64,000 nucleotides of DNA from Rossellomorea sp. y25 (GTDB lineage Bacteria; Bacillota; Bacilli; Bacillales; Bacillaceae_B): the NCBI RefSeq assembly GCF_038049935.1, contig NZ_CP145886.1:2860501-2924500 (forward strand), written 5' to 3'. The notes under the pieces are model-generated. The model had not been told where the DNA came from and ran no database searches. It was given only the letters and a program-made list of their open reading frames with translations. The translations under genes were made by a program, and so were the position numbers. Below are positions 1,781 through 49,967 of this stretch, one piece after another (the stretch's first letter is position 1; every line of letters begins with the position of its first letter).

Positions 1781-2947
1781 TTACTTTCCGACTTTAGTGA
1801 AAAGTCCAAAGGATTTTTTGTATAACTCCCACCAGCTTGCATCTTTCACACTTTTCTTTGCAACGAGAGTGCTTTCCAATACTTTTTCCCCTTTGTTCAT
1901 GATGACAAGGGTCCCGACTTTATCTCCTTTTTTGATAGGGGCCTTAAGGTCTTTAGAAAGTGTTATCTTCTGTTCCACTTTATCCAGTTTTTCACCTTTT
2001 TGGGTTAACAGGGAGATCGGCTCTTCCGTCACTGCATCCACTCTGTTTTGTTTCCCTTTCGATACTTTCACTTGTGCCAGGGAGTCCCCCTTTTTGAAGA
2101 GAGGTTTGGTTGAATACTGATTGAAGGCATAATCCAGCATTTTACTTACCTCGTTGTTTCGCTCTTTAGGAGTCGGTGCTCCGAACACAACAGCAATGAC
2201 TCTCATATTATCTTTCTTTGCCGTTGCCGTTAAACAGTATTTCGCTTCATTTGTGAATCCCGTTTTCAGCCCGTCTACTCCGTCATAAAAACGAACCAAT
2301 TTATTCGTATTCACCAACCAGAATTTTTTATCCGTATCTTCACGCAAGTACGATTCATAGCTGCCTGTAAACTTGGTGATTCCTTCATATTTTAGAAGTT
2401 CTTTGGCCATCATGGACATGTCATGTGCCGAACTATAATGATCTTTGGACGGTAAGCCTGTCGGGTTTTTGAAATGAGTGTCTTTTAACCCAAGCTCTTG
2501 TAACTTTTTGTTCATCTTCTCGACAAAGGCTTCTTCACTTCCTGAAATATGCTCGGCCATGGCTACTGATGCATCATTGGCAGATCCAATCGCAATTCCC
2601 TTAAGCATTTCTTCAACAGACATGCTCTCACCGGGCTCCAGGAAGATTTGTGATCCACCCATCGAAGCGGCATATTCACTTGCACGAACCTGGTCTTCCC
2701 ACTTTATTTGACCTTTTTCAAGGGCTTCCATGATCAACATCATTGTCATAATCTTGGTCATGGATGCTGGTGCCAGCTTTTCATGACTATTCTTCTCATA
2801 TAGCACCGTTCCAGTATCCCGCTCAATCAAAATAGCTGATTTCGCTACTTCAGCTAATTCCGATTTCTTCTCCTGGGCAAACCCCATTGAAGGAAATAAA
2901 AAAGCTGCTAAAACAAATGTCACTACTATATACGCAAAACGTTTCAT
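1781..2947 (-). CDS. dacF: D-alanyl-D-alanine carboxypeptidase (DacF type)
   Basis: This penicillin-binding carboxypeptidase trims the terminal D-Ala of peptidoglycan stem peptides and in B. subtilis is made in the forespore, acting with DacB on spore cortex cross-linking. The 388-residue protein has an N-terminal signal peptide (cleavage probably after FAQ), SMTK (Ser62-Lys65), SAN (122-124) and KTG (228-230), the three serine-PBP motifs, then a C-terminal beta domain with an amphipathic tail. The ATG at 2947 has GGAGG eight bases upstream. It lies just upstream of spoIIAA, so late read-through from its own promoter would re-express the sigF operon. Confidence 0.94.
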   Translation of the reverse strand: MKRFAYIVVTFVLAAFLFPSMGFAQEKKSELAEVAKSAILIERDTGTVLYEKNSHEKLAPASMTKIMTMMLIMEALEKGQIKWEDQVRASEYAASMGGSQIFLEPGESMSVEEMLKGIAIGSANDASVAMAEHISGSEEAFVEKMNKKLQELGLKDTHFKNPTGLPSKDHYSSAHDMSMMAKELLKYEGITKFTGSYESYLREDTDKKFWLVNTNKLVRFYDGVDGLKTGFTNEAKYCLTATAKKDNMRVIAVVFGAPTPKERNNEVSKMLDYAFNQYSTKPLFKKGDSLAQVKVSKGKQNRVDAVTEEPISLLTQKGEKLDKVEQKITLSKDLKAPIKKGDKVGTLVIMNKGEKVLESTLVAKKSVKDASWWELYKKSFGLFTKVGK

Positions 2948-2995
2948 CCAACTGTCCTCCAATCAAATCTCGTTTTTAATCAATACTCATAGACC

Positions 2996-3203: not shown

Positions 3204-3335
3204 GATGCGTCATTTTCACGAATAATTGCGTCAAAATTCGATTTATTGCGTCTGTTTGGGGTGGAATTGCGTCAATCTGGACGTTAATTGCGTCAATTCC
3301 AACGTTAATTGCGTCTTCCACACTTGCAATTGCTG
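3204..3335 (+). repeat. Phased ATTGCGTC array 1
   Basis: GCGTC begins at 3207, 3228, 3248, 3269, 3290 and 3311, with a degenerate seventh unit (GCTGA) at 3332. Spacing is 21, 20, 21, 21, 21 and 21 bases. Units share only (A/T)ATTGCGTC; the 12-13 bases between are unrelated. The array fills most of the gap between the pdp terminator and the dacF promoter. The rest of 2948-3440 holds that promoter, the pdp terminator and nothing else I recognise. Confidence 0.85.
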
Positions 3336-3385
3336 ATTTGTCCATAATACGGTATTCGCATTTCCTTACAAATTCATAAAAAAAA

Positions 3386-3423
3386 GCCCCTGCCAAAGAG
3401 AAATAATCCTCTTGGCAAAGGCC
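3386..3423 (-). terminator. pdp terminator
   Basis: GCCCCTGCCAAAGAG (3386-3400) pairs with CTCTTGGCAAAGGC (3409-3422). Read on the minus strand the hairpin is followed by eight U residues. Confidence 0.85.
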
Positions 3424-3440
3424 TCGATCAAAATTAAAAA

Positions 3441-4745
3441 TCAACCCGTGATTTCTGTATGAATCAACGTAGGTGCTTTCACATTTTCAGATGTAACTTT
3501 TATGCTTTCATATAATTTGTCTTTTACATTTTCAATGTTCTCTTCATTGCTGTAGATGGTCACAAGGGAATCTCCCGCTTTGACCGAATCGCCAATTTTC
3601 TTGCGAAGTTCAAGACCAACCGCTAAATCGATAACAGAATCTTTCGTCGCACGGCCAGCCCCTAACCACATAGCAGCCGTTCCTACTGCATCTGCAACAA
3701 TTTCAGATACATAGCCATCTTCTTTCGCTTCAAGCTCAATCTTGTACTGAGCTTGTGGAAGCTTTGAAGGATCATCCACAACGGATGGATCTCCACCTTG
3801 TGATTCAAGGAATACTTTGAAATTCTCAAGAGCTGATCCATTTTCAATTGCTTTCTGCAATAGCTCTCTCGCTTCTTCCAATGTTGATGCTTTTTCAGCC
3901 AGGTATACCATATGACTTCCAAGCGTTAAGCATAACTCTGTTAAGTCTTCTGGACCTTCACCTTTTAACGTATCGATCGCTTCTTTTACTTCAAGTGCGT
4001 TTCCGATCGCGAAGCCCAGTGGCTGACTCATATCCGAAATGACCGCCATTGTTTTTCTGCCGACGTTGTTTCCGATATTCACCATTGCTTTGGCAAGGTC
4101 TTTTGAATCGTCCAGTGTTTTCATGAAAGCTCCGGCACCCGTTTTTACGTCAAGTACGATAGCATCCGCACCAGCAGCTATTTTTTTACTCATGATGGAA
4201 CTTGCGATGAGAGGAATGCTATTGACCGTTGCCGTCACATCACGTAGTGAATAAAGCTTTTTATCAGCCGGTGTCAAATTACCACTTTGTCCGATAACGG
4301 CTAACTTATTCTTGTTCACTAATCGGATAAATTCATCGTTTTCAATTTCCACATGGAAGCCTTCGACGGATTCAAGCTTATCGATTGTTCCTCCAGTGTG
4401 TCCAAGACCTCTTCCACTCATCTTCGCTACTGGTACGCCAACGGAAGCAACCAGTGGTCCGAGAACGAGGGTGGTTGTATCACCCACACCGCCTGTGGAG
4501 TGTTTATCTACTTTAATTCCTTCAATCGCCGACAGATCGATTTGATCTCCTGATTCGACCATTGCCATTGTCAGGTCGGCTCTTTCTCTATCGCTCATAT
4601 CTTTAAAGAAGATGGCCATTGTCAGGGCACTTACCTGATAATCAGGGATGCTTCCATCTGTATATCCTTCAACGATAAATTTAATTTCTTCTGTAGAAAG
4701 TTCTTTACCTTCACGCTTCTTCTCTATTAAGTCAACCATTCTCAT
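3441..4745 (-). CDS. pdp: Pyrimidine-nucleoside phosphorylase
   Basis: The enzyme phosphorolyses thymidine, deoxyuridine and uridine to base and (deoxy)ribose 1-phosphate. The 434-residue protein matches the Bacillus Pdp family end to end: [14 protein letters not shown] phosphate-binding loop, [19 protein letters not shown] signature and [10 protein letters not shown]. The ATG at 4745 (MRMVDLI) gives the family N-terminus; an in-frame GTG lies three codons upstream. It is the last gene of a deoB-pupG-pdp group for nucleoside salvage and ends at a strong terminator. Confidence 0.95.
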
Positions 4746-4821
4746 TATATTCACCCGCTCTTATAGTATTAGCCAAAGGGGCCTCCCCTTTAGTTAGTTA
4801 TCATTTTGAACCTTCCATCGC

Positions 4822-9740: not shown

Positions 9741-9822
9741 TCCTCTCTTCTATTCTATTGAACTTCCATGGAGATAAACGTATAATCATAGAAACCTTAT
9801 TATGGAAGTGGAGGGACATATT

Positions 9823-10398
9823 TTGGACAAAACAAGTTTAATCGAGTTTCCTGATAGGATTGAAACATCCCGCCTCTACATTAGACCATGCATGCCCGGG
9901 GACGGTCCTGACGTCTTTAATGCCATCCAGGAATCCAGAAACGAATTGAAGCAGTGGCTTCCCTTCGCCCGGAAAGCACAAACCCTTGAAGAGGTGGAGG
10001 CCGGGGTCCGGGATTCCTATGCAGAATTCATAAAGAAGACCGACATTCGACTACATATTTATCTCAAAGATACTGATGGATTCATTGGGTCTACAGGGTT
10101 TCACCGCATCGACTGGGACGTGCCAAAAGTGGAGATCGGATATTGGCTTCACACGAAGCACACAAAAAAAGGGTATATCGTTGAAGCGGTAAACGCGTTG
10201 ACACATTTCGCCTTAAACGAACTCTCCTGCAAGCGGGTGGAAATTCGCTGCGATGATAGAAATGCAGGTTCCAAAAGAGTACCTGAAAAACTGGGATTTA
10301 CGCTAGAAGGCATTATTCGTCATGATCATCTTGATGAAAATGGGACAGACGCACGTGATACATGTGTTTATTCTCTGATTCCAGCAGACCTCAATTAA
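9823..10398 (+). CDS. GNAT acetyltransferase, RimJ/RimL type
   Basis: A 191-residue N-acetyltransferase. The N-terminus has the TSRLYIRP strand usual in RimJ/RimL-like enzymes, and EIGYWLHTKHTKKGYIVEAV covers the acetyl-CoA loop, followed by NAGSKRVPEKLGFTLEG. Substrate is unknown; it could acetylate a ribosomal protein or a small amine. GGAGGG sits seven bases before TTG at 9823; an in-frame ATG at 9802 overlaps the ribosome binding site, so TTG is preferred. The A-loop reads HTKKGYI where the family usually has GKGYA/GYM, a slight deviation. Confidence 0.85.
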   Translation: MDKTSLIEFPDRIETSRLYIRPCMPGDGPDVFNAIQESRNELKQWLPFARKAQTLEEVEAGVRDSYAEFIKKTDIRLHIYLKDTDGFIGSTGFHRIDWDVPKVEIGYWLHTKHTKKGYIVEAVNALTHFALNELSCKRVEIRCDDRNAGSKRVPEKLGFTLEGIIRHDHLDENGTDARDTCVYSLIPADLN

Positions 10399-10567: not shown

Positions 10568-10657
10568 ATTGCGCCAATTTGCTATTTATTGCGTCGAAAT
10601 CCGGGGTAATTGCGTCACAATCAGTCGTAATTGCGTCAATTTTTCATTATATGCGTA
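10568..10657 (+). repeat. Phased ATTGCGTC array 2
   Basis: GCGCC at 10571, GCGTC at 10591, 10612 and 10633, and GCGTA at 10653: spacing 20, 21, 21 and 20 bases. The outer units are degenerate. It lies in the 328-base gap between the convergent GNAT and nudF genes; 10399-10560 holds nothing else I recognise. Confidence 0.8.
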
Positions 10658-10726: not shown

Positions 10727-11272
10727 TTAACTCTTATTTTGCAGTTGCAGATATTGAACGGCATAAGCCGTTTTTGCATCGTAAATCCGCTGTTCTTTTA
10801 TAAGCTGCGCCGCTTCCTCGACTGTTACTTCAATCAACTCTACAAATTCATCTTCATCCGTTTCTTTCGATTCCTGAATGGGATAAAGGTCGTGAGCGAT
10901 ATACAAGTGAACCAGCTCATCTGCAAATCCTGGAGACGTGTAAAACGAAATCAAATGCTCCAGGTTCCCACATCCGTAGCCCGTTTCCTCTTCCAATTCA
11001 CGAATGGCTGTTTTACCGGGCTCTTCCCCGGGCTCTAGCTTCCCTGCAGGAATTTCGATGATGGATTTCTCCAACGCTTTGCGATATTGCTCTACCATGA
11101 CAAGCTTCCCCTCTGGTGTTAACGCAATAACAGCAACAGCCCCAGGATGCTTAATCAGTTCTCTCTTGGAAGTCTTTCCATTGGGAAGCTCTACTTCATC
11201 CACCTGAAGATCAATGATTTTCCCTTGATAGATGGTTTCCGTTTTAATCGTCTTTTCTTCAAATTTTTTCAT
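10727..11272 (-). CDS. nudF: ADP-ribose pyrophosphatase
   Basis: NudF hydrolyses ADP-ribose to AMP and ribose 5-phosphate. The 181-residue protein contains the Nudix box G-x5-E-x7-REUxEE-x2-GU, seen from GKLEPGEEPGK to AIRELEEETGYG, and the ADP-ribose subfamily proline after it in YTSPGFADE. The ATG at 11272 (MKKFEEKTI) gives the family length; the open frame upstream overlaps mciZ on the other strand and is not supported. In B. subtilis nudF (yqkG) neighbours yqkF, as here. Confidence 0.93.
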   Translation of the reverse strand: MKKFEEKTIKTETIYQGKIIDLQVDEVELPNGKTSKRELIKHPGAVAVIALTPEGKLVMVEQYRKALEKSIIEIPAGKLEPGEEPGKTAIRELEEETGYGCGNLEHLISFYTSPGFADELVHLYIAHDLYPIQESKETDEDEFVELIEVTVEEAAQLIKEQRIYDAKTAYAVQYLQLQNKS

Positions 11273-11354
11273 CCGCTCAACTCTCCTTGTTCTGTCGTTG
11301 ACCTTGTCCTCATACATTTTACCATATCCCATTCGAGGATCGAGGTGAAACCCC

Positions 11355-11480
11355 TTGAAGGTGATTGCTGAAAAAGACCGGATCATCCTGGTAGGTAAAG
11401 CATGGGAAATCAGGGAGAAGCTGAAGCAATATAATCAAATCTACTCCACGGTGAAGGAATGGATCGAAGCCAATCGTTGA
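11355..11480 (+). CDS. mciZ: MciZ, mother-cell inhibitor of FtsZ
   Basis: A 41-residue protein beginning MKVIAEKDR, with the core LVGKAWEIREKLKQY followed by VKEWIEANR. This matches B. subtilis MciZ (40 residues) in length, start and core; that peptide caps FtsZ filaments and blocks Z-ring assembly in the mother cell during sporulation. TTG at 11355 is preferred: an in-frame TGA sits at 11346 and GAGGTGA lies at suitable distance; GTG at 11361 is the alternative. It lies divergently from nudF, as expected. CATACATT at 11311-11318 resembles a sigma-E -10. Confidence 0.85.
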   Translation: MKVIAEKDRIILVGKAWEIREKLKQYNQIYSTVKEWIEANR

Positions 11481-21716: not shown

Positions 21717-21840
21717 GAAAAGCGGAGGCGGCTTGAGCAGGACCGACAAGCATAAGGCGAACATACCGGAAAGGCGCTCTTTGCCTTTTTGGTATGTTTG
21801 ACTTATGACCTCGAGCCTCTAAGCCCTGCAGCTGGATCAA
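21717..21840 (-). repeat. Three-tier palindromic repeat, copy A
   Basis: A 124-base unit starting GAAAAGCGGAGGCGGC. The inner hairpin is CATAAG/CTTATG, AACATACC/GGTATGTT and AAAGGC/GCCTTT. It differs from copy B by one base over the right 100 bases, but its left outer arm (AGCAGGACC) does not pair with its right outer arm, unlike every other complete copy. This suggests recent duplication of the neighbouring unit. Confidence 0.85.
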
Positions 21841-21964
21841 GAAAAGCGGAAGGGCTTTGCCTAGAGGCGACAAGCATAAGGCGAACATACCGGAAAGGCG
21901 CTTTTTGCCTTTTTGGTATGTTTGACTTATGACCTCGAGCCTCTAAGCCCTGCAGCTGGATCAA
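21841..21964 (-). repeat. Three-tier palindromic repeat, copy B
   Basis: Tandem with copy A, period 124. The outer stem TAGAGGC/GCCTCTA, linkers GACAAG and ACCTCGA, and the inner arms as in copy A are all paired. Minus-strand orientation equals that of the 41-kb and 63-kb copies read on the plus strand. Confidence 0.88.
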
Positions 21965-22000
21965 GAAAAGCGGAAGGGGCTCGCCCTGGGGCGACAAGCA
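21965..22000 (-). repeat. Truncated palindromic repeat, copy C
   Basis: GAAAAGCGGAAGG, a diverged arm and GCGACAAGCA follow copy B in the same register, then similarity stops at about 22000. It holds only the left arm. Apart from these repeats and the LexA box, 21599-22119 contains nothing I recognise. Confidence 0.75.
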
Positions 22001-27027: not shown

Positions 27028-27083
27028 TCACCTATAATATACGTCTACTATCGGTAAATCATTTTACATAACACTAAAAGAAA

Positions 27084-27325
27084 AAGCGATGATAAAGACT
27101 AGTAATGAATAGATGATGTCAGAGATCGGTGCCCACCGGCTGAAAGGCACCGTCATCCCCTCTATTTGTGAACCTGCCTTTTGAGCGTCTTAAAGCAGAA
27201 CGTTTTTCCAGCGTTACATGGAAGTGAAGTGTGTTCATTTCGTCCATTGGAATGAACAAAACAAGGTGGTACCACGGAAGCAGACCCTTTCGTCCTTTAT
27301 GGATGAGAGGGTCTGTTTTTTTTTT
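27084..27325 (+). ncRNA. Proline-specific T-box riboswitch
   Basis: The leader begins with stem I near 27084, contains AAGGTGGTACCACGG (27263-27277), the T-box core that pairs with uncharged tRNA, and ends in a terminator: CAGACCCT (27281-27288) with AGGGTCTG (27308-27315) and a ten-T run. In the specifier region GAACCTGCC, the codon CCT (27173-27175) reads proline, fitting proI downstream. Uncharged tRNA-Pro should favour antitermination and proline synthesis. Confidence 0.9.
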
Positions 27326-41340: not shown

Positions 41341-41360
41341 TTTGATTGTATCGACGAGCT

Positions 41361-41484
41361 GTCCAGCTACAGCGGCTAGAGGCTCGAGGTCATAAGTCAA
41401 ACCTGCCAAAAAGGCAAAGGACGCCTTTCCGGCAGGTTCGGCTTATGCTTGTCGCCTCTGATCAAGCCGCCTCCGTTTTTCTAT
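41361..41484 (+). repeat. Three-tier palindromic repeat P1
   Basis: The unit starts GTCCAGCT and ends CCGTTTTTCTAT. Stems from outside in: GCGGCT/AGCCGC, AGAGGC/GCCTCT, CATAAG/CTTATG, AACCTGCC/GGCAGGTT, AAAGGC/GCCTTT, loop AAAGGAC. Linkers TCGAGGT and CTTGTC are unpaired. Period to P2 is 126 bases. Confidence 0.9.
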
Positions 41485-41486
41485 TT

Positions 41487-41611
41487 GTCCAGCTCCGGCG
41501 GCTAGGCCCTCGAGGTCATAAGCTAAATCTGGCAAAAAGGCAAAGAACGCCTTTTCGCCAGATTCATCTTATGCTTGTCGGGCCTGATCAAGCCGCCTCC
41601 GCTTTTCTATT
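41487..41611 (+). repeat. Three-tier palindromic repeat P2
   Basis: Same plan as P1 with changed but still paired stems: GGCGGCT/AGCCGCC, AGGCCC/GGGCCT, CATAAG/CTTATG, AATCTGGC/GCCAGATT, AAAGGC/GCCTTT, loop AAAGAAC. Its end TTTTCTAT supplies the TAG stop codon of yqjE on the minus strand (41607-41609). Repeats P1, P2 and the hairpin at 41304 account for nearly all of 41218-41606. Confidence 0.9.
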
Positions 41612-48161: not shown

Positions 48162-48944
48162 CTACTGTTCTCCGTTAAACCACTTTTCAGCCAGTTTATC
48201 CAATTCTCCATTTTCCTCGAGCTTTTTCAATGCATCGTTGAATTCGCTTGTAAGCTCACTATCCTTTGGAAGTGCAACGGCAGAACCGGCTTCTTCTTCG
48301 TTCACGTCCATTGTATTTCCTTGAAGTTCTTTATTTTTATCCAAATACCCATTTGCTACGGTATTTTCGATGATAATGGCATCAAAACGTCCATTTTGCA
48401 GATCCTGTATCAGCTCAGGAATACGGTCACGGGTCTCTACTTTTAATGGGATGGATGTGGAAAGTTCTTCTGCAGCTTCCTGTTGGATGGAACCTAACTG
48501 AACGCCAACCGTTTTCCCATCAAGATCCTTTTCGCTTTCAATTCCGCTTTCTTTAGTTGAGATGATCATATCCTTGGCAGTGTAATAAACATCACTGAAG
48601 TCAACATTCTTTTGTCGTTCTGGGGTAGGGGTCATAGCTGAAAGCACAAAGTCCACCTGGCCGGTTTTAAGTGCTGAAATTAAACCGCTGAACTCCATAT
48701 CTTTGATCTCGATTTCATACCCAAGTTCATCTGCCAGCATCTGAGCCAAGTCAATGTCGTACCCGATAAATTCATCACTGTTTGCCGTATCGACGTATTC
48801 AAATGGTTTATAGTCCGCAGAGGTACCCATGATCAGTTTTTTTGATTCTCCTGAAGCGGTTCCTGCATTCTCTTCTCCTGCACCACACGCTGCAAGAGTA
48901 GTAGAAACGATTAATACTAATATTAGAGATAATATCTTTTTCAA
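48162..48944 (-). CDS. artP: Arginine-binding lipoprotein
   Basis: The 260-residue solute-binding protein of the ABC system. Signal peptide MKKILSLILVLIVSTT is followed by the lipobox LAAC. The SBP family-3 signature appears in GYDIDLAQMLADELGYEIE. After lipidation it sits on the outer membrane face. It is first in the operon, in line with higher expression than artQM. Confidence 0.93.
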   Translation of the reverse strand: MKKILSLILVLIVSTTLAACGAGEENAGTASGESKKLIMGTSADYKPFEYVDTANSDEFIGYDIDLAQMLADELGYEIEIKDMEFSGLISALKTGQVDFVLSAMTPTPERQKNVDFSDVYYTAKDMIISTKESGIESEKDLDGKTVGVQLGSIQQEAAEELSTSIPLKVETRDRIPELIQDLQNGRFDAIIIENTVANGYLDKNKELQGNTMDVNEEEAGSAVALPKDSELTSEFNDALKKLEENGELDKLAEKWFNGEQ

Positions 48945-49330: not shown

Positions 49331-49420
49331 ATTGCGTCATTTCGGGAGGGAATTGCGTCATTATTTAATTTATTGCGTCGTTTTTCCATTATTTGCGTCA
49401 TTTTAATAAGGAATTGCGTT
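49331..49420 (+). repeat. Phased ATTGCGTC array 3
   Basis: GCGTC at 49334, 49355, 49375 and 49395, with GCGTT at 49416: spacing 21, 20, 20 and 21 bases. It lies in the 585-base gap between artP and brxB. The rest of 48945-49529 holds the direct repeat above, the brxB terminator and AT-rich sequence without a credible gene. Confidence 0.85.
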
Positions 49421-49529: not shown

Positions 49530-49967
49530 TTACACTTCTTCACAATACTGATCGAAGTACGATTGAATTTTGTTCACAACCGACATTGGGTCGTGACCTT
49601 CAATTTCATGTCTTTCTACCATCGTCAATAATTTTCCGTCTTTTAATAGAGCAAATGACGGTGAGGATGGCGGGTAACCTGTAAAGTAGCTGCGCGCTTT
49701 CGCTGTAGCTTCTTTATCCTGGCCAGCGAAAACCGTCACTAATTGATCCGGTCGTTTATCGTAGTGAATGGAATGAGCTGCTGCTGGGCGAGCGATTCCT
49801 CCTGCACAACCACAAACAGAGTTGATCATAACAAGTGTAGTACCTTCTTTAGCGAAAGCTTGATCTACTTCTTCTTCACTAGTTAATTGAGTATAACCGG
49901 CTTGTTCGATTTCTTGACGAGCCTGACGAACAACGTCGTTCATAAATAAGTTGAAATCTATATCCAT
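49530..49967 (-). CDS. brxB: Bacilliredoxin BrxB (YqiW)
   Basis: A 145-residue thioredoxin-like protein that removes bacillithiol from mixed disulfides. The active site is Cys-Gly-Cys at residues 52-54 in [16 protein letters not shown]. Length and sequence match the YphP/YqiW family. It lies between the art operon and meaB as a single gene with its own terminator. Confidence 0.94.

Follow-up and report, generated by a model that had tools for sequence, protein, structure and literature searches.

The pdp–dacF intergenic region of Rossellomorea sp. y25 carries a row of short direct repeats (array 1, Table 1) which belongs to a genome-wide set of helically phased arrays, and arrays of the same architecture are present in other Bacillaceae genera with core words of their own. 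The core word is lineage-specific, a finding that goes beyond the single-window view of an earlier note on this DNA. Because the word differs between lineages, the arrays point to a putative protein that would cover a single face of the helix at numerous chromosomal sites. Our reading as a whole, in which a head-to-tail cooperative, lineage-specific DNA-binding protein would occupy the arrays in an architectural or boundary role, stands in our estimation about an even chance of being right.

The window analysed is the whole stretch of 64,000 nucleotides surrounding array 1. The units of array 1 are spaced by 21, 20, 21, 21, 21 and 21 bases, exactly as the earlier note had stated. Its description of ATT before each core is accurate except for the first unit, which has GAT. 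GCGTC lies on the plus strand, so that GACGCAAT is on the coding strand of both pdp and dacF. A predicted intrinsic terminator precedes the array in the direction of pdp transcription; it was absent from the output of the consensus terminator scan. The two further arrays that had been announced for this window were located as arrays 2 and 3, and Pfam was run on the six genes flanking the three arrays. Eleven of the 12 exact copies of ATTGCGTC in the window (both strands) lie inside the three arrays, and in the window the exact 8-mer is therefore almost confined to them. With one mismatch allowed its count is that of chance (50 versus 48.9 expected), which makes phasing the non-random feature. 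A search of the whole stretch, with spacing windows from 12 to 44, found 6-mers in four or more evenly spaced copies at 20–22 bp only. Coding does not explain array 1, as had been argued, since it is intergenic and its 20-bp step breaks the reading frame. ORFs overlapping arrays measure 70–107 aa in the y25 genome and up to 224 aa elsewhere (L150); no array was found to lie within one ORF of a real gene, and 20-bp units break the frame. Two tandem repeats elsewhere in the window have units that, judged by eye, are mutual reverse complements, and they possibly belong to an interspersed repeat family.

Table 1. Arrays and neighbouring features of the window, two expanded arrays elsewhere, and core words from the core-blind scan
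Feature	Position	Strand	Units or evidence	Context
Array 1	3204-3336	+	Seven units: GATGCGTC at 3204; ATTGCGTC at 3225, 3245, 3266, 3287 and 3308; degenerate ATTGCTGA at 3329	Intergenic, pdp-dacF
pdp terminator (intrinsic; stem-loop and U8)	3378-3425	-	-27 kcal/mol; z -5.4 versus shuffles	
pdp, pyrimidine-nucleoside phosphorylase	3441-4754	-	Pfam PF00591, PF07831, PF02885	Upstream of array 1
dacF-type D-alanyl-D-alanine carboxypeptidase	1781-2962	-	Pfam PF00768, PF07943	Downstream of array 1
Array 2	10568-10657	+	ATTGCGCC, 3 x ATTGCGTC, degenerate TATGCGTA	Flanked by convergent genes
GNAT gene	9802-10398	+		Flanks array 2
NUDIX gene	10727-11386	-		Flanks array 2
Array 3	49331-49420	+	3 x ATTGCGTC, TTTGCGTC, ATTGCGTT; spacing 21, 20, 20, 21	
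Disulphide-isomerase-family gene	49530-49967	-		Flanks array 3
Solute-binding protein gene	48162-48944	-		Flanks array 3
Tandem repeat	21744-22000		Two copies, ~124 bp	
Tandem repeat	41360-41611		Two copies, ~126 bp	
T-box leader	27080-27300	+	Rfam	Sole Rfam match above gathering score in the window
26-core array, y25 genome (L130)	4069-4669 of 3551300-3560000		20/21-bp units alternating; two spacer types alternate as a 41-bp superunit	
72-core array, G066	3968-5507 of L153		72 GCGTC cores; spacing 21, 21, 21, 19 over most of the length, an 82-bp superunit	Another family; overlaps two ORFs of ~150 aa
Peribacillus deserti			ACATAAAA; GTGCATAAA; core-blind scan	ACATAAAA at dacF-pdp site
Cytobacillus massiliigabonensis			TTGCAAA; core-blind scan	One array
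Bacillus sp. FJAT-27251			GCTGGTAA; core-blind scan	One array
Fictibacillus arsenicus			TTACCGTG; core-blind scan	One array

The arrays are not confined to the window; confinement to it is the outcome that the earlier note had named as fatal to its idea. The pattern GCGTCN{14,18}GCGTCN{14,18}GCGTC has 60 matches in the closed y25 genome (G000, 4.63 Mb) versus 0 for its reversed control, and these resolve into 14 arrays of 3–26 cores each. Among 36 Rossellomorea genomes, GCGTC arrays are present in 19 and absent from 17, the reversed control giving 0 in all 36. Five of the 17 give matches to AATCTT arrays of the same architecture. Three of these sets are strong (51 matches in G006, 39 in R. enclensis (G009) and 29 in G002) and two are weak (G001, with three matches plus one control match, and G010, with two). 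No Rossellomorea genome has both kinds of array, and 12 of the 36 have neither. In a DNA tree of the single gene dacF, covering 30 of the 36 genomes, the AATCTT genomes fall outside the GCGTC clade. The array-less genomes G024 (AcN35-11) and G025 (RO3) are nested within that clade (97/94 support), and the array system is thus dispensable. No array of any 6-mer was found at the six rRNA-operon loci of G024 or at 18 such loci of the array-less G012–G014; four of the six rRNA-operon loci of G023 carry arrays. That arrays can be lost genome-wide suggests, without proving it, a trans-acting factor that can itself be lost. The GCGTC pattern also matches 18 times in an outlier, G017 (dacF 73% identical, 84% complete). 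At the rRNA operon ends of the array-less G024 (L374, L384), tandem extra copies of a segment comprising the 5S tail and terminator are present.

Across the order, TGCGTC arrays occur in 23 of 397 genomes, nine of them Rossellomorea. Among the 14 from outside that genus, half show between one and three matches apiece, which may be chance. The genus g77, of another family, has 17, 7, 19 and 188 TGCGTC matches in four of eight sampled genomes, with a period of mostly 20. In G152 the reversed control CTGCGT has 63 matches and TGCGTC none, possibly another array system. A core-blind scan was applied to 80 dacF loci (1,607,832 bases) to find exact 6-mers that recur in four or more copies with constant spacing and lie outside long ORFs. 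Its spacing windows accept P-1 or P, so that one array may count in two of them, and its counts were one at 20, 14 at 21, five at 22 and one each at 37 and 38, with zero in all other windows from 12 to 39. With gaps of 19–22 allowed, 14 arrays were obtained. Nine are in Rossellomorea or in same-clade records labelled Bacillus sp., and the remaining five have new core words in other genera (Table 1). The dacF–pdp site holds three different cores in three lineages. A preference for this site across genera is suggestive only, resting on two of six arrays outside the GCGTC clade (L468, L522) in a scan that is itself dacF-centred. P. deserti has 149 CATAAA-array matches and F. arsenicus 55, each beside a control of 0; the y25, C. 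massiliigabonensis and FJAT-27251 genomes have none. Several core flavours may share one genome: P. deserti (G417) has AAGCATAAA and CCACATAAA arrays, and R. enclensis has, besides its AATCTT arrays, five CATAAA matches versus one in the control. A pattern scan of viral sequences returned at least 120 matching stretches.

The anatomy of the arrays was analysed in stretches of six GCGTC-clade genomes (G000, G003, G004, G005, G007 and G023), where 103 chains yielded 373 distinct units: 189 of 21 bp, 181 of 20 bp and three of 19 bp. Distances between TGCGTC copies on the same strand are 20 bp (210 cases) or 21 bp (203), any other distance up to 39 bp occurring at most four times. Over two units, 41 bp (208 cases) is preferred to 40 (68) and 42 (41). 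The earlier proposal of two helical turns per unit is well supported by the 20/21-bp distances and this pair preference, and the core is constrained. In the y25 genome the alternation of 20- and 21-bp units exceeds that of within-array shuffles (49 steps versus a shuffled mean of 34.9); it was not significant in G005 (P 0.067) or in a mixed set (P 0.52). The spacers, which had been described as unrelated, are not wholly so, because clade-wide their composition varies with unit length: spacer GC is 0.149 in 20-bp units (n=181) versus 0.310 in 21-bp units (n=189 distinct; z 11.5). A-rich DNA has a shorter helical repeat, so both unit lengths could make two full turns, and AT-rich 20-bp units beside GC-richer 21-bp units would be expected if angular phase, rather than base count, were kept. 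Numerically, a dinucleotide twist table assigns the two unit classes nearly equal twist per bp and lends twist compensation no support. Length has no effect on GC in the AATCTT set, where 84 of 87 distinct units are 21 bp, or in g77, where 50 of 54 are 20 bp. Within the unit, GC alternates twice, about once per turn. In five of six sets the second harmonic was higher than in any of 500 spacer shuffles; in F. arsenicus (17 units) it lay within the shuffles. In all 16 orthologous pairs, GCGTC is changed at 15 of 439 positions (3.4%) versus 167 of 897 spacer positions (18.6%), a core constraint somewhat overestimated because both members of each pair were chosen for having arrays. In the same pairs the three bases before GCGTC are changed at 20 of 260 positions and the flank at 686 of 4104.

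The number of arrays per genome ranges from a few to dozens, and in Rossellomorea most lie behind a gene terminator. In the same six GCGTC-clade genomes, 96 of 101 arrays could be classified: 49 are co-directional with GACGC on the coding strand and 17 with it on the other strand, 21 are convergent and nine divergent, these being raw counts in which orthologs recur and which carry no background of intergenic types. By the same raw count, 87 of the 96 lie 3' of at least one flanking gene. The AATCTT set has 21 co-sense, seven co-antisense, two convergent and no divergent arrays, with one unclassified. For 70 GCGTC-clade arrays the gene upstream is in sense orientation at a distance of 30 to 460 nt, and 64 of them have a terminator-like hairpin between its stop codon and the array (coding control 27 of 146); the median distance from T-run to first core is 72.5 nt. 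The 13 arrays located behind an exact 5S tail, at loci chosen because they bear arrays, are all oriented alike. The arrays of P. deserti (14 classified, one at the edge of the fetched sample) and F. arsenicus (five in the fetched sample) are also intergenic, with polarity weaker in the former (6 to 3) and absent in the latter (0 to 3). In three closed genomes all 29 co-sense arrays also run with the replication fork, taking the contig start as origin and the half-way point as terminus, and replication and transcription are therefore inseparable as the cause of orientation.

In Rossellomorea the array orientation mostly agrees with that of the gene upstream (49 to 17, and 13 of 13 behind 5S), which raises the possibility that the arrays act as RNA, each transcript presenting a row of 8-nt targets to an RNA-binding protein or a small RNA. 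A lineage-specific word of 7–8 nt would fit a drifting small RNA. However, nothing about an RNA target evidently calls for 20/21 spacing or 41-bp pairs, and the arrays lie beyond terminator-like hairpins. Folding of either strand was no better than shuffles (mean z 0.03 to 1.21 in three sets), and no Rfam match was found at the arrays of the window. We regard an RNA role as rather improbable. Quite unlikely, too, is an effect of DNA shape alone, in which phased AT/GC alternation would produce bent DNA to which a general factor such as gyrase or HU is drawn behind transcribed operons, on the model of the BIMEs of E. coli. The GC/AT alternation with the helical turn, the position behind terminators (including the 13 equally oriented arrays behind 5S rRNA genes) and a GC skew that flips from G-rich to C-rich at the arrays in all four groups tested, a comparison made without array-free intergenic controls, agree with such a role. 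Bending, however, needs no exactly conserved word of 5–8 bp, whereas the cores change about five times less often than the spacers and are lineage-specific.

A mobile-element origin, either from transposon-end or iteron-like repeats or from a short selfish repeat subject to spread and turnover, would account for gain and loss between close relatives, for expanded arrays with near-identical units (the 26- and 72-core arrays of Table 1) and for the patchy taxon distribution. The array at the dacF site, for example, is present in G000 and G004 and missing in G003, likely through deletion as judged by eye. Orthologous arrays nevertheless share constrained cores. No paired inverted ends around cargo, of the TnsB/Mu type, and no consistent bracketing inverted repeat were found at 66 arrays (longest pair 16 bp at one, a search made without a chance control), and no transposase or Rep gene was recognised by inspection beside the 14 arrays of the y25 genome. 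We therefore consider this origin unlikely. The genes flanking these 14 arrays appear to be housekeeping or rRNA genes, as judged from their first 60 residues, and no cas gene was seen among them. Left and right flanks pair no better than mismatched pairs, and the genes between two opposed arrays at 1.12 Mb are ordinary ones in the four genomes inspected.

Several known systems resemble the arrays in part. Plasmid iterons are direct repeats bound by Rep. The likeness lies in direct repeats about two turns apart (20/21 bp here) with a short conserved core, in the cooperative one-face binding proposed here and in a specificity that differs between lineages. Unlike iterons, the arrays are chromosomal, many per genome and in Rossellomorea mostly behind terminators; no replication origin or Rep gene was recognised beside the 14 y25 arrays by inspection, nor does Pfam place a Rep gene among the window's six flanking genes. 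In ParR/parC and other plasmid centromeres, direct repeats of ~20 bp seed a superhelical protein filament; the repeat length is similar, but no such operon was recognised beside the y25 arrays, and their sites are many per chromosome. Eukaryotic rDNA terminator arrays bound by TTF-I/Reb1 are likewise polar and lie behind rRNA genes, a resemblance that may be taken as analogy only. BldC of Streptomyces is MerR-like and binds variable numbers of direct repeats head-to-tail, distorting DNA (PMC5859096). The arrays share with its sites direct repeats on one strand, but BldC is a developmental regulator whose sites lie at promoters such as smeA-sffA. REP/BIME elements are repeated extragenic elements mainly downstream of genes, one class being tagged CGTC and consisting of palindromes with stems of 8–9 bp, mostly in head-to-head dimers (PMC3733652). 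The arrays have the same extragenic location downstream of genes; unlike CGTC REPs they are head-to-tail, unstructured and phased, and palindromic stem-loops are absent. The Beggiatoaceae heptamer TAACTGA is likewise a short word repeated directly and genome-wide between genes, most copies being just upstream of start codons (PMC4679880). Among the matches listed, it and the CGTC-tagged REPs come nearest, and both differ from the arrays in period and structure. For the known kinds compared feature by feature, BldC sites excepted, at least one defining feature is lacking in the arrays. Open-access literature gave, among the matches listed, no description of such arrays, most subscription papers lying outside the search. 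The element counts as new in that the tests applied matched it to no known kind; its principle of binding is not novel in itself.

The strict spacing of two turns, the composition that follows the helical turn, the constrained core, the lack of RNA structure and the lineage-specific words together make a cooperative same-face binder the best explanation of the arrays. We rate binding by such a protein, the candidate reading already offered in the earlier note, as somewhat probable; the search for the binder itself found none. An array would be a DNA-level cis element, a row of putative sites, one every two turns. A sequence-specific protein would occupy the cores, each copy touching the next along the same face, and would so assemble head-to-tail and bend or wrap the DNA. 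Each Bacillaceae lineage in which arrays were found has its own core word and a unit length near 20.0, 20.5 or 21.0 bp. Because the arrays lie behind terminators, a boundary or architectural role suggests itself; given the binding protein, that role is in our view about as probable as its absence. The nucleoprotein complexes would most likely insulate neighbouring transcription units or organise the chromosome rather than serve as classical promoter operators.

No gene beside the arrays convincingly suggests an autoregulated binder, shared neighbours being mostly syntenic housekeeping genes, and no family of transcription factors is a recurrent array neighbour in three lineages. By inspection, a gene for an ECF-like sigma factor lies near arrays in two lineages and DEAD-box helicase genes in three. 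It is very improbable that the arrays serve as centromere-like sites for a sporulation chromosome anchor, be it RacA or another. The B. subtilis ram half-site probably contains GACGC, which counts in its favour. RacA binds centromere-like ram sites via an N-terminal helix-turn-helix (PMC6593407). However, 311 of the 397 genomes of the order have a match to a RacA profile at E<=1e-5 versus 23 with TGCGTC arrays, and RacA is encoded in g77 genomes without TGCGTC arrays (G358, G395, G414). Matches of the B. subtilis domain in Rossellomorea are weak throughout (E 8e-5 to 7e-3), occur whether or not a genome bears arrays, and are probably to CarH-like MerR proteins. The profile revealed no recognisable ortholog in Rossellomorea (G000–G035), and a MerR_1 scan of the y25 genome gave eight matches with no RacA recognised among them. 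RacA was rejected as the binder because its distribution is out of step with the arrays and no Rossellomorea ortholog is recognisable.

A wider view, which we hold to be possible but doubtful, is that Bacillaceae have a chromosome-wide centromere-like scaffold made of phased arrays and a fast-evolving filament-forming protein. Eukaryotic centromere repeats co-evolve with their binders, and a likeness may be drawn to them. The DNA word (GACGCAAT, AAGATTA, GCATAAA, ACATAAAA and others) would then have been replaced wholesale between lineages, in one case at the same intergenic site, dacF–pdp.

If the reading of the arrays as sites for a cooperative binding protein is true, they would constitute an undescribed class of chromosomal cis element in several Bacillaceae genera, detectable without knowledge of the core. 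Their trans-acting factor would switch specificity between sister clades and represent a modular type of array-binding protein. A function in chromosome insulation or anchoring would then be directly testable.
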